Source: Lachnospiraceae bacterium
Lineage (GTDB): Bacteria; Bacillota; Clostridia; Lachnospirales; Lachnospiraceae
NCBI GenBank assembly: GCA_015057425.1
Contig: SVEL01000007.1
Coordinates: forward strand, 62,001-126,000
Reading direction: 5' to 3'
Length of the DNA stretch: 64,000 nucleotides
How positions within the stretch are numbered: position 1 is the stretch's first letter; each line of letters begins with the position of its first letter. The translations under genes were made by a program, and so were the position numbers. Below are positions 5,831 through 11,360 of the stretch, one piece after another. A model generated the notes under the pieces. It did no database searches, was not told the DNA's origin, and saw only the letters and a list, made by a program, of their open reading frames with translations.

Positions 5831-7696
5831 TTATCGTTGGCAGACAGTTCCTTCATACACAAGGCTTGCAGCTCCGCAACCGGAACATTTTACTGAACAA
5901 TTAGGGGTAACCTTCTCCTCTAATGCATTGTTCCATTCTCTTTTTAAGAAATCTTTGGTTACACCTATGTCGATGAAATCCCATGGGAATATTTCATCTA
6001 AATCACGAGGTCTTGTAGTGTAAAATTCAATGTTAAGACCGGCATCATTGATGGCCTTTACCCATTTATCAAAAATGAAATGTTCTCCCCATGCATCATA
6101 GAGACAACCATCATTATATGCGTTTAAAATCGCTTTTCCAAGTCTTCTGTCCCCTCTTGCAAGAACACCTTCAAGTATGGTTACATCGGCTTCATGCCAA
6201 TTGTATTTAATACTTTTTCTGTTAAGCATATCATTTACTTTGTTTTTTACAATCATAGCACGCTCTATAAACTCTTCGCGGGTACACATAGGAGCCCATT
6301 GGAATGGTGTAAATGGCTTTGGCACAAAAAATGATGAACTGGCAACAATCTGTACTTTTCCATTTCTTTTCTCCTTAGGAATAAGTTCATAATATAATCT
6401 TGCAATTTTATCAGACAATACAGCAATGCCTTCCATATCTTCGATTGTTTCGGTTGGAAGACCGAGCATAAAATAAAGCTTTACTCTGTTCCAGCCGCCT
6501 TCGAACGCTAAAGAAGCACCATTCATAATATCATCTTCCGTAAGCCCTTTATTAATAACGTTTCTAAGCCTTTGAGTTCCGGCTTCAGGAGCAAAGGTTA
6601 AGCTTGATTTCTTTATATCCTGGACCTTACTCATAACATCAAGGGAAAATGCATCAATTCTAAGAGAAGGAAGAGAAATATTTACTCCTTTTCCCTTAAA
6701 TTCATCTAAAAGGAAGTCTAAAAGTTCTTTCAACTGAGAATAATCACTTGAGCTTAAAGAACTAAGTGATATTTCTTCATGACCTGTTGTTTCTAACATT
6801 GAAACAGCTTTTTCTTTAAGAAATTCCAAATTTCTTTCTCTTAATGGTCTGTAAATAGTTCCTGCCTGACAAAAACGACATCCGCGTATACATCCGCGCT
6901 GGATTTCAAGTACCATTCTGTCCTGTACAGACTTTATAAATGGAACTAAAGGCTTGTCCGGATAAACAGTATCGCTTAAATCCGTTACTACTTCCTTTCT
7001 GACCTTTCGTGGCGCTTCGGGTACATTTGGCTCAAAAGCTTTGATTGTTCCGTCTTCATTGTAAGTTACATCATAAAATGCAGGAACATATAACCCGCCG
7101 ATTTGTGCGGCCATTTTAAGGAAATCTGTTTTTGAACCATTGTTTTTACGATTTTCTCTATAAGCATTTATTAAATCTTCATATACGGTTTCACCCTCGC
7201 CAATATAAAAGATGTCAAAGAAATCAGCTATTGGTTCAGGATTGTAAGAACATGGTCCGCCACCTATAACTATTGGAAATCTTTCGTCTCTGTCTTTGGC
7301 AAGAAGAGGTATCCCTGCAAGATCAAGAATCTGTAAAATATTTGTATAGCACATTTCATATTGAAGGGTAATTCCGAGAAAATCAAAATCTTTAATCGGA
7401 TCCTGACTTTCCAAAGCAAATAAAGGAATATTTTCCTTACGCATTATTTCGTCAAGGTCAGTCCATGGTGAATAAACACGTTCACAATATACTCCATCCA
7501 TTTTATTAAACATATCATACAATATCTGTATGCCTAAATGTGACATTCCGATGTCATATACATCAGGAAAACACATAGCAAAACGGATATCAATTTCATT
7601 GATATTTTTAACGACCATATTTACTTCATTGCCAATATATCTGGCGGGTTTATCAACCTTCATTAATATATCATCACTTAATGCAAGCTTTCTCAT
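5831..7696 (-). CDS. TIGR03960-family B12-binding-like radical SAM protein
   Basis: This 621-residue protein has an N-terminal Rossmann-like region resembling a cobalamin-binding fold (about residues 30-220, with the GGGPCSYNPEPI turn) followed by the radical SAM barrel with RGCIRGCRFCQAG, the CxxxCxxC cluster motif binding [4Fe-4S] and S-adenosylmethionine. GLPTET further on is the usual radical SAM motif for the later barrel strands. A Cys-rich tail (CSVKCSGCGA) near the C-terminus could bind a further metal. The partner DUF2344 protein follows. Its substrate is unknown. Start MRKLALSDDILMKVDKPARY fits the family and is preceded by AGGAAGGA. Confidence 0.9.
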   Translation of the reverse strand: MRKLALSDDILMKVDKPARYIGNEVNMVVKNINEIDIRFAMCFPDVYDIGMSHLGIQILYDMFNKMDGVYCERVYSPWTDLDEIMRKENIPLFALESQDPIKDFDFLGITLQYEMCYTNILQILDLAGIPLLAKDRDERFPIVIGGGPCSYNPEPIADFFDIFYIGEGETVYEDLINAYRENRKNNGSKTDFLKMAAQIGGLYVPAFYDVTYNEDGTIKAFEPNVPEAPRKVRKEVVTDLSDTVYPDKPLVPFIKSVQDRMVLEIQRGCIRGCRFCQAGTIYRPLRERNLEFLKEKAVSMLETTGHEEISLSSLSSSDYSQLKELLDFLLDEFKGKGVNISLPSLRIDAFSLDVMSKVQDIKKSSLTFAPEAGTQRLRNVINKGLTEDDIMNGASLAFEGGWNRVKLYFMLGLPTETIEDMEGIAVLSDKIARLYYELIPKEKRNGKVQIVASSSFFVPKPFTPFQWAPMCTREEFIERAMIVKNKVNDMLNRKSIKYNWHEADVTILEGVLARGDRRLGKAILNAYNDGCLYDAWGEHFIFDKWVKAINDAGLNIEFYTTRPRDLDEIFPWDFIDIGVTKDFLKREWNNALEEKVTPNCSVKCSGCGAASLVYEGTVCQR

Positions 7697-7724: not shown

Positions 7725-8567
7725 TTATTGATTTTTATTAATCTTAATTTCAAGCTTATCTATTTCTTTCTTAACTTCATTATCAAGGGTAAGGTCATAT
7801 ACCATTGAAAAGCAGTCAAAAGCATTTTCGTAGCGGAAATTATCGCGTTCTATTTCCCCTACTCTGTATGTTATTCCTATAGTATCGGGATTTGGTCCTG
7901 TAGGAATATTGTTATCTTCAAGAATTTTCTGAAGACCTTTAATATTGTTTTTTAAGGAATCTTCATATTCATCTGTCAGATAAAGAGATTTCTTTAAAAA
8001 TTCAAGTTCGCTTACAGCCTGTTTTGTTTCATAGAAAATATTGCTGTATATATATAGTGCCATTGCTTCCTGCGGCTTTTTATTTTCAAGATAATAATAC
8101 CCTAAATTTCTGTAAAAATGAGCAATCGTGGCTCTACTGCAGCAATAATCATACAATTCAAATGTCAGCTTTTTTAGTCCGCGAACATTTCCCTGCTTTT
8201 TGTATAGTTCACCAAGCTGAAAAAGTGTATCAAGGTCTACAGGATTGTAGTTCAGTGCCTTATTATAGGCGACAATTGAATCATCGTATCTTTCAAGCTG
8301 CATATATACATATCCAAGTAGTCTGTAATAACCATTTATGTTATGAAATGTATAGTTTAATTCAGAGTCATCTTTCATAAAAAATGCATAATAATATGAT
8401 TCTATAATATGATTGAAGCTGTAGTATTTTTTTAAAGGAGAAACGTATAACGGCTCAACGAGGCTTATTAATTCCTTTAATGAATCTCTTGCTTCTTTAA
8501 AATCTTTTTTTGAAACAAGTTTTTTGCAGTTTTCATATTTTTCGTTAATAACTTTTTCGTCAAGCAT
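7725..8567 (-). CDS. Tetratricopeptide-repeat protein
   Basis: This is a 280-residue soluble, helix-rich protein. Residues about 85-165 contain recognisable TPR units, for example YRLLGYVYMQLERYDDSIVAYNKALNYNP and LDTLFQLGELYKKQGN, with the alternating small and large residues of the fold; a further helix pair lies near YRVGEIERDNFRYENAF. TPR arrays bind partner proteins. There is no signal peptide or membrane segment. It lies 20 bases before the L,D-transpeptidase-like gene in translation order of the operon and 29 bases from the radical SAM gene, so it is cotranscribed, but no specific partner can be named. Start is supported by CAGGAGGC. Confidence 0.8.
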   Translation of the reverse strand: MLDEKVINEKYENCKKLVSKKDFKEARDSLKELISLVEPLYVSPLKKYYSFNHIIESYYYAFFMKDDSELNYTFHNINGYYRLLGYVYMQLERYDDSIVAYNKALNYNPVDLDTLFQLGELYKKQGNVRGLKKLTFELYDYCCSRATIAHFYRNLGYYYLENKKPQEAMALYIYSNIFYETKQAVSELEFLKKSLYLTDEYEDSLKNNIKGLQKILEDNNIPTGPNPDTIGITYRVGEIERDNFRYENAFDCFSMVYDLTLDNEVKKEIDKLEIKINKNQ

Positions 8568-8586: not shown

Positions 8587-9990
8587 TTATTCGTATATTA
8601 CTATGGCTGAATCATTTGGAAGGTTTTTGTATACGGTATAGGCATCATCTTTGCTTAAATAAATTGAACCATATGAACCGTTGTTCTTATATATTGAACC
8701 TCCAAAAGATGTAAGCCAGTCAGCTGCAACAAGACCTATAGTATCATCTGCTGTTGAACCGTAAAATACCATCCAGTAATTAACCGAACGTGTAAAATAT
8801 GAACGGTTAAATGTATATTTCTTTTGCTTGTATCTTAATTTATATGTTCCTGTAGGTGTTTCATATTTAGTATTATCTGTACCGGATATGATATTTGCAG
8901 TTAAAATCTGTTCACCGTCAACATAGAGAAATAACTTTTGTTTTGATAAAGATATTTCGCAATATGTGTTACCGATATCGCTGTCGCCGTGAACGGCAGC
9001 CTTCTGCAAGTATTCTATCTCTCTCTTGCAACTGTTGTTTGCCTTAATGTCGTTGATGATATTCTTCACTTCACCGTTTTTATTAAACCACCAACCGTAA
9101 TCTCCGCCTTTTACTATAATTGTTTTACCGTAAGAATTTGTAAATTCTCTTGTACAGCCAAAGGTTTCATACTTCTTTGCAAGTGATGTTACATAATTTA
9201 ATATTGCTTTTTCATCAAAGACAATTTCAGTGTCATCTGAAAGAGAAATCCATTGTGAAATCAGGTTTCTGTCAATAACTTCCGTATTTTCTCCAAATAC
9301 AAGTTCAATCTTTGTGTTTATATATCCGTTTAATGTTCCTTCAAGTTCATATAACTTTGAAGTTTCATCAGTTTTATCGACAAGATAGCAACCGCTTTCT
9401 TCAAGATTTATAGATGTTTTGCCATCTTTAACGGCATTTTTTATAAGCGTTGAAAGAAGCTCTACATTTAGTTCAGTTCCTGCATCACCGCTTTTGACAG
9501 TATAAGCTCCGTTTTCGTAAACAAGATACGGAACAGATGGTTTACGCATATTGTCCGGATTTGCACACTTAAGGTTATCTATCTTTTCCTGAAGAAGAGT
9601 TTCGTTGTATGAAATCGTTGTCGGAATTGTAAACGAATCATTTTTCTTAAAAAACCATGCATACGGATTTTGCTTTGCTTTTACCGATGCAACTGATTCT
9701 GACAAAACAATTGACATATTTATTGACTCTGCGGAAATATGTTCAACAACATTATCTCTTTCTATAAGCTGTAACACGTAATAACGTGTGTCCTTTTTTA
9801 ACATTTCTTCTACATTCATTACTGATTTACCGGAACAATCAATTCCGTTTATGGTTGTTCCAAAAAAGAAATGTGATTGAAAATAAATTGCAAAAAGTAA
9901 ATAAATAAAAGTTATTATAACTGCAACTAAGGCGGCTATAGCAATAGCCACCCTTTTTATTGAATATCTGTAGCGGGTTGAATTAGACAT
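8587..9990 (-). CDS. L,D-transpeptidase-fold (YkuD) protein lacking the catalytic Cys
   Basis: This 467-residue protein has a short cytoplasmic tail, one membrane helix at about residues 14-36, and a large extracytoplasmic part. TTINGIDCSGKSV is the usual start of the peptidoglycan-binding domain found in Clostridial L,D-transpeptidases; a second such repeat follows, and the C-terminal 130 residues are the YkuD domain (SLSKQKLFLYVDGEQ). The active-site signature SHGC is here SYGS: Tyr replaces His at about 440 and Ser replaces the nucleophilic Cys at about 442, within GSIYKNNGSYGSIYLS. I checked the codons (TCA TAT GGT TCA). It is therefore likely unable to crosslink peptidoglycan and may be a structural or regulatory binder. 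It is downstream of the his genes. Confidence 0.9.
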   Translation of the reverse strand: MSNSTRYRYSIKRVAIAIAALVAVIITFIYLLFAIYFQSHFFFGTTINGIDCSGKSVMNVEEMLKKDTRYYVLQLIERDNVVEHISAESINMSIVLSESVASVKAKQNPYAWFFKKNDSFTIPTTISYNETLLQEKIDNLKCANPDNMRKPSVPYLVYENGAYTVKSGDAGTELNVELLSTLIKNAVKDGKTSINLEESGCYLVDKTDETSKLYELEGTLNGYINTKIELVFGENTEVIDRNLISQWISLSDDTEIVFDEKAILNYVTSLAKKYETFGCTREFTNSYGKTIIVKGGDYGWWFNKNGEVKNIINDIKANNSCKREIEYLQKAAVHGDSDIGNTYCEISLSKQKLFLYVDGEQILTANIISGTDNTKYETPTGTYKLRYKQKKYTFNRSYFTRSVNYWMVFYGSTADDTIGLVAADWLTSFGGSIYKNNGSYGSIYLSKDDAYTVYKNLPNDSAIVIYE

Positions 9991-10034: not shown

Positions 10035-11336
10035 TTATCTGCGGGACAGCTCCGTCATAATATCTTCCCATGTAACACCACGTTCTGCCATAAGAACCAT
10101 AACGTGATATAAGAAATCTGAAATTTCGTATTTGATTTCTTCCGGATTTGGATTCTTGGCAGCGATTATTATTTCCGTAGCCTCTTCTCCGACTTTCTTA
10201 AGAATTTTATCAATTCCTTTATCAAAAAGGTAATTGGTATATGAACCTTCTTTAGGATTTGCTTTCCTATCGAGGATTACATCAAATACATTATCAAGAA
10301 TCTTGTGAGGATTATTTTCTTTATAATCAGTTTTAAGTACTTCATTGAAGAAACAGCTTCTTTCACCTGTATGACATGCAGCACCGACCTGAAATACCTT
10401 GGCAAGTAATGTGTCGCTGTCGCAGTCAGCATAAAGAGCCTTTACATACTGGAAATGACCGGATGTAAGTCCTTTTTCCCATAATTCATTTCTGCTTCTG
10501 CTGTAGTATGTCATTCTGCCTGTTGTTACAGTCTGATTAAAGGCTTCTTCGTTCATATATGCAAGCATCAATACTTCATCTGTTCTGTAATCCTGTACAA
10601 TTACAGGAATCATACCATCGTTGTTTGTCTTGAAATCAGAGAATTTCACATTAGTTTCAAGTGTTTTTGCAGGAATTCCGTCATTTTTTGACAAATATTT
10701 AACGTTCATATAGTCAACGTCTGTTTTTTCTGACAAAATAATTGCAATACCTTTAATGGAATTCTCAGAAATTTCATATACTTCCTTAATAAGCGGATAG
10801 TCATTTATAAGTCCTAAAACTACAGTGTCAAAGTTCTTCAACGAGCATTTAATATATAACTTTGTATATGCTTTTATATTTTTTGCAAAAAGGCATTTTA
10901 CACCGGCTTCACAGGCTGATTTTACAGCATCTGCATCTGTAGTATCATCAAAGTATACAGCTATTTTATCTTTACCGAATCTGTCGCAGGCTTCTTTTAA
11001 AAGTTCAACGTTGGACTCTTTATTAAAATCAAGGACTGCTGCTTCTGCTCCGGCATAAAGATATTTCTTTACATCTTCAAGTCTTTTGATGTTTCCTGCA
11101 AGATAAACTTTTGTATCAGCTATAGAAACGATTTCTTTAATTGTATCTATATTTTCATCATGTTCGGCATCTGTTTCTGATATTTCTGTTATAAACAATC
11201 CGTCTGCTCCGCGATTAGCAATATATCTGCAGTAATCAGGAACGGAATAATCATTTTTGTTAAGAACACTTCCGTCGCCGGATATAAAGCTATTTGATTT
11301 AATGGAAAACTGTTGTAATAAATTAAAATTTTTCAT
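10035..11336 (-). CDS. hisIE: HisIE with an N-terminal degenerate HisA/HisF-like barrel
   Basis: The C-terminal half is a bifunctional histidine enzyme. HisI (about residues 235-330; [44 protein letters not shown]) is phosphoribosyl-AMP cyclohydrolase with its zinc cysteines, and HisE (about 345-433; [14 protein letters not shown]) is phosphoribosyl-ATP pyrophosphatase. The first 215 residues look like a TIM barrel of the HisA/HisF type ([30 protein letters not shown]) but without the expected N-terminal catalytic Asp motif or phosphate-binding GG turns, so it is probably inactive. I start at the second ATG because GGAG is only 3 bases from the first. It is last in the his gene order here. 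Confidence 0.92.
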
Positions 11337-11360
11337 CATAATCTCCGTTCTGTTTCTATA

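Follow-up and report, generated by a model that had tools for sequence, protein, structure and literature searches.

YkuD proteins are usually regarded as cross-linking enzymes and as drug targets, and annotation by homology would label the gene described here an L,D-transpeptidase. The best-matching described enzyme is Ldtfm of Enterococcus faecium (1ZAT, 6FJ1), which has a catalytic His421 and a nucleophilic Cys442, and whose C442S mutant is represented by 2HKL. LdtCd1 of Clostridioides difficile combines a transmembrane helix, PG_binding_4 (PG4) sequence and a YkuD domain (PMC12729407), and it contributes to 3-3 cross-links and to an exchange reaction (PMC11986978). For LdtMt2, the C354S form yielded neither product nor, with several penems and carbapenems, an adduct, yet it was crystallised with bound substrate (PMC11410929). 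LdtJ of Acinetobacter baumannii provides evidence for an L,D-transpeptidase role without catalysis, since its C390S form is catalytically inactive yet supports growth and shape (PMC12548408). Chemistry other than that of cysteine has been reported in the YkuD superfamily for the YafK-type protein Lpg1514 of Legionella, which hydrolyses beta-lactams in a serine-dependent manner; its Ser132, however, does not lie at the Cys site, the protein still has Cys174, and its activity is aided by His166 (PMC13400389). A non-catalytic role for YkuD has elsewhere been suggested only from laboratory mutants in other bacteria, and in the open-access literature we found no paper that unites D-transpeptidase with pseudoenzyme or names such a class.

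The stretch of DNA analysed here, referred to as the window, comprises 64,000 nucleotides of a contig from a gut Lachnospiraceae bacterium and carries on its reverse strand an open reading frame (8587-9990) with an ATG start and no internal stop. Ldtfm is the closest described protein to its product both by sequence (E = 2.8e-19) and by structure, over the second PG4-like and the YkuD domains. Pfam searches of the window protein returned PG_binding_4 in two stretches (48.2 bits, above the curated cut-off) and YkuD at 44 bits against a cut-off of 23.4, with no match to the VanW domain (PF04294). An AlphaFold2 model that drew on 62 relatives had a mean pLDDT of 92.5 over the whole protein, and its top Foldseek matches were the Ldtfm structures 6FJ1, 1ZAT and 2HKL (TM-score by target 0.74-0.76; E = 1.7e-20). 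By fold and homology (PF03734) the protein is a member of the YkuD family, and its layout of transmembrane helix, PG_binding_4 and C-terminal YkuD resembles that of LdtCd1, a likeness drawn from the literature description and not from direct alignment. An earlier note on this DNA had described an intact frame with a membrane anchor and peptidoglycan-binding repeats, and the reading frame, the Pfam matches and the modelled helix agree with it. The features of the gene are as follows.

8587..9990, reverse strand: putative pseudo-L,D-transpeptidase gene, 467 aa, frame intact (open reading frame; Pfam PF12229 and PF03734; six orthologues)
9883..9966, reverse strand: lone N-terminal transmembrane helix, residues 9-36 (AlphaFold2 helix and hydrophobic sequence)
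9361..9879, reverse strand: PG_binding_4-like domain 1, about residues 38-210 (hmmscan and model elements; limits taken from the model elements, those of hmmscan applying to the best stretch only)
9037..9321, reverse strand: PG_binding_4 domain 2, residues 224-318 (PF12229, 48.2 bits)
8596..8964, reverse strand: YkuD domain, catalytically dead as judged by sequence, residues 343-465 (PF03734, Foldseek, AlphaFold2)
8794..8835, reverse strand: rebuilt capping loop, residues 386-399, with R386, F394, R396 and F399 fixed and Y392 in 6/7 clade members (column comparison)
8743..8757, reverse strand: five-residue insertion 412-416, within the hairpin ahead of the catalytic-His position, in 7/7 clade members and 0/55 proteins outside
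8728..8730, reverse strand: codon 421, Val for the catalytic His (V, V, A, A, A, I, M across the clade; Ldtfm alignment and column comparison)
8659..8679, reverse strand: GSYGSIY (438-444), replacing GSHGC[IV]N; Ser for Cys442 and Tyr for Asn444 are fixed across the clade

The string GSIYKNNGSYGSIYLS was found in the window protein, and alignment with Ldtfm (1ZAT/6FJ1) placed Ser442 at the nucleophile Cys442, which bears out the active-site Cys-to-Ser change that had been proposed. The same alignment set Tyr440 against the His of SHGC, so that the accompanying His-to-Tyr change is real; the histidine named there, however, is not the catalytic one, and the loss of the true catalytic residue, His421 of the IGIHD segment, which corresponds to Val421 in the window protein, had been missed. 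On this comparison the SHGC His is an auxiliary residue and not the catalytic base, because the remaining YkuD proteins encoded in these genomes, which are intact and have both the catalytic His and the Cys, carry Leu or Gln at this position (SLGC, SQGC), and because the motif given in a review of YkuD proteins has X there (PMC12729407). The window YkuD domain contains no histidine at all and a single, unconserved cysteine, C344.

Full-length relatives of the same layout were found, at the cut-off used, in 211 of 397 sampled Lachnospiraceae genomes. Together with the window protein, six of these relatives form a clade of seven proteins from seven species and three Lachnospiraceae genera: four from the window genus (4/8 genomes), two from a second genus and one from a third. 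The clade has support of 100/100 and was recovered from the N-terminal half alone with an SH-aLRT of 99, which rules out that it is an artefact of the altered sites. All seven frames are intact, they come from separate genomes, and they share 39-76% identity. Since six more orthologues in other genomes bear the same replacements, chance and sequencing error are excluded, and so is an isolated degenerate copy. The earlier note's reading of a pseudoenzyme was thus strengthened: in the six close relatives of the window protein, the clade spanning three genera, Cys and catalytic His are likewise gone, under purifying selection, whereas Cys and His in all close relatives was the pattern that the note had set as its refutation. 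The loss is common to the orthologues and kept under selection, as expected of a pseudoenzyme, and by this tree the loss of the Cys and the catalytic His goes back to a common ancestor of three or more Lachnospiraceae genera. In the window genus the gene turned up in only four of eight members; two of the remaining four genomes are near complete, and it is therefore dispensable in some lineages; most of the genomes are incomplete draft assemblies. The genus-level relatives that public records name are Lachnospiraceae assemblies obtained from the colon of goats and cattle.

Column comparison of the seven clade members with 55 aligned relatives outside the clade revealed how far the active-site region has changed. 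The outside proteins are intact Lachnospiraceae PG4-YkuD proteins with full-length homology to the window protein at 25-36% identity; they keep His421, Cys442 and Asn444 in 55/55 cases, lack the insertion, and lie at other loci where the neighbourhood was read. In the clade, by contrast, His421 is present in 0/7, so that a catalytic His in GxHG or GxHD is missing, and Ser442 and Tyr444 are present in 7/7, so that no nucleophilic Cys stands in (S/T)XGC. A catalytic Ser backed by His, as in Lpg1514, was not found either, the clade having no conserved His. A displaced Cys nucleophile was considered, as Cys423 occurs in five of the seven members, but it does not occur in the window protein or in G309, the most divergent carrier, whose copy has also lost the TPxG motif (TLKG). 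Of the Y-G-S string whose conservation the note proposed to check, Ser442 is invariant in a clade with low dN/dS; one clade member, G429, keeps the SHGC His. Likewise, the description of the domain as otherwise close to active enzymes is half true, since about ten clade-specific changes are fixed, the capping loop and the strand preceding the catalytic His are rebuilt, and five residues are inserted relative to the aligned Lachnospiraceae enzymes. Where the capping loop outside the clade has mostly T, L, G, Y and A, the clade has Arg396 for Gly, Phe394 for Leu, Phe399 for Tyr, Arg386 at a position where Thr is commonest outside, and, in six of seven members, Tyr392 for Ala; Val408 replaces Pro. 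Bulky replacements in or near the cleft, with Y392, F394, R396, Y410 and Y444 as candidates, may close the pocket or form a new site.

Fixed switches were enriched in the former active-site shell, defined after inspection of the alignment columns, where they affect 7/48 sites as against 6/377 elsewhere (Fisher p = 1.6e-4). Within the clade, mean identity falls from 68% in the shell to 51% over the remainder of YkuD and 45% over the N-terminal part. Close clade pairs gave dN/dS values of about 0.05-0.14 (NG86, for the pairs yielding a value, with synonymous sites near saturation); only NG86 is quoted because this saturation defeats YN00 for most pairs. The dN of YkuD is about half that of the rest of the protein, as it also is in pairs of intact relatives, and the dead YkuD falls short of the conservation predicted by the regression of intact pairs by only about 0.8 standard deviations. 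By these measures the YkuD domain is under purifying selection, and a domain kept as mere ballast should not show such a pattern of constraint.

The genomic position of the gene is also shared, and in all seven genomes the order is hisIE, the gene, and a TIGR03960 radical SAM gene. In the window the neighbours are as follows.

10035..11339, reverse strand: hisIE, upstream neighbour across a 44-bp gap, directly followed by the gene in 7/7 genomes
7725..8567, reverse strand: TPR protein gene, next downstream, present also in G309 and missing from the loci of the other five carriers
5831..7696, reverse strand: TIGR03960 radical SAM protein gene, the conserved far border of the locus

No terminator-like site was found on the gene's strand in the interval between hisIE and the gene, and this together with the close spacing makes co-transcription with the his genes plausible. 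The TPR gene is not tied to the pseudo-transpeptidase, because only some carriers have it and G003, a genome without the pseudo-transpeptidase, has it too; no constant partner gene was seen across the carriers. In G003 and G005, two members of the window genus without the pseudo-transpeptidase, the interval between hisIE and the radical SAM gene holds a gene for a Wzy_C O-antigen-ligase-like membrane protein (L077 6649-8160, L078 7677-9203). The hisIE product of the window, like that of G001, has an N-terminal partial His_biosynth (HisA/HisF-like) domain at residues 36-134, and at the hisIE place in G006 the open reading frame has only 110 aa, its N-terminal part missing. Intact PG4-YkuD genes from other genera (L079, L081, L056, L057, L059) differ in setting from the dead clade with its his locus, as they lie near apparent wall-precursor genes that are Mur ligase-, dapF- and ddl-like by eye; the L057 gene is that of Acetivibrio ethanolgignens. 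A phage origin has little in its favour: the best match in a phage collection covers 94% of the protein but at only 33% identity, and is an unannotated faecal record; this full-length relative (MT835525.1, 16528-17844) may be phage or host DNA. VanW enzymes were considered as a back-up, but a search of 13 genomes, carriers and their sisters, returned none.

A second lineage came from a pattern search of 392 genomes of the order, in which Tyr was demanded at position 444; Cys-less relatives with another residue there escape such motif searches. In f11, another family of the order, PG4-YkuD genes occur as tandem pairs in which the first copy is intact (GLHD...GSHGCVN) and the second degenerate (loci L133 782-5218, L134 7682-12012, L135 7426-11753, L136 7454-11056 and L023). 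The degenerate copy reads GIND...GSNGCIY in two genomes, where the Cys is kept and the catalytic His is lost, GIND...GSNGSIY in a third and GICD...GSDGSIY in a fourth, and in the f11 genome G046 both tandem copies are intact. The AU test rejected a single origin for the window clade and the f11 copies (p = 0.0009; the tree was a quick one, and the hypothesis was named only once the motif had been seen), and the tree, which sets the two apart, suggests two events of degeneration within f11. Convergence on Tyr444 is partly built in, because the search required this residue; the separate f11 origin and the intermediate states, as read from these sequences, are not produced by that requirement.

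Taken together, the window gene probably encodes a conserved pseudo-L,D-transpeptidase that does not cross-link the wall but, anchored in the membrane, acts in wall assembly as a scaffold, sensor or regulator. We favour this explanation because the losses occur in 7/7 clade members and 0/55 outside proteins, have a single origin and a common locus, and are accompanied by constraint, by switches in the shell and by a retained fold, because of the LdtMt2 and LdtJ data, and because of the parallel loss in f11. An ancestral enzyme with a transmembrane helix, two PG4 domains and YkuD lost its Cys and catalytic His but kept the YkuD fold and acquired a clade-specific active-site region. The helix would anchor the protein in the cell membrane with its domains outside, the PG4 domains would contact peptidoglycan, and the dead YkuD would bind without catalysing, its target being stem peptides, a further wall enzyme or, in the remodelled cleft, a new ligand. 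A scaffold or receptor is proposed on account of the LdtMt2 C354S and LdtJ C390S results, and since Lpg1514 uses a different Ser together with a His. While the dead forms of Ldtfm (2HKL) and of the active enzyme LdtJ were made in the laboratory, the Cys-to-Ser change has been fixed naturally in the window clade, with the His lost as well; LdtCd1 takes part in cross-linking, unlike the state proposed for the window protein. An enzyme activity of the ancestral type is very unlikely, and the earlier expectation that beta-lactams should not touch the protein would follow from the LdtMt2 C354S data. A natural clade without catalytic residues that retains the fold and has a newly fixed active-site region implies that the YkuD scaffold can serve non-catalytically.

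The alternative that survives best, although we hold it to be unlikely, is that the protein functions by peptidoglycan binding through its PG4 domains and that YkuD is kept only for folding. Consistent with it, both Pfam families are retained in 7/7 clade members, the catalytic-His position varies freely (V/A/I/M), and in LdtJ the regions needed for protein stability are non-catalytic ones, growth and shape being maintained without the YkuD domain (PMC12548408). A remnant maintained for its fold, however, predicts the reverse of the constraint observed, as YkuD is more constrained than the rest, and most so in the former active-site shell with its new fixed residues. Less probable still, the dead copy might pair with or compete against an active YkuD protein. 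The f11 degenerate copy directly follows an intact one, and every g1 and g242 carrier has another, intact YkuD protein; but this protein is of another type, an active PG4-type paralogue was not found in the genomes carrying the window clade, and no other YkuD was found in G309 (85% complete). In the window's own genome the other YkuD protein, encoded on the same contig (L002 829-2337, G000:C9), retains catalytic His and Cys (FHS...SLGCVR) and has at its end a long tail of near-identical Thr/Ser/Asp-rich repeats.

A serine-based enzyme in which Ser442 is the nucleophile of a new chemistry, which the earlier note had also entertained, is very improbable. Ser442 and Tyr444 are invariant in the clade, the S-x-Y pair arose anew in two of four f11 copies, and Lpg1514 demonstrates serine-dependent hydrolysis by a YafK protein; against this, the window YkuD offers no His base, position 421 being V/A/I/M, LdtMt2 C354S forms neither product nor carbapenem adduct, LdtJ C390S is inactive, and Lpg1514 relies on a different Ser supported by His. 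That the gene is a degenerate or artefactual copy without function, as its absence from half of the genus might indicate, is hardly credible in view of seven intact frames at 39-76% identity, one locus, low dN/dS and fixed clade residues.

Returning to the preferred reading of a conserved non-catalytic wall protein, a wider claim can be put forward tentatively, with a chance that we place somewhat short of even: pseudo-L,D-transpeptidases may be recurrent, with at least two independent lineages, the Lachnospiraceae clade and the f11 tandem copies (perhaps two events), in which PG4-YkuD enzymes became wall receptors or regulators devoid of catalysis, reached the same C442S and N444Y changes with loss of His421, and left the scaffold to serve as a wall binding module. 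The f11 series GSHGCVN, GSNGCIY and GSNGSIY among close relatives opens the route from enzyme to pseudoenzyme to direct testing.
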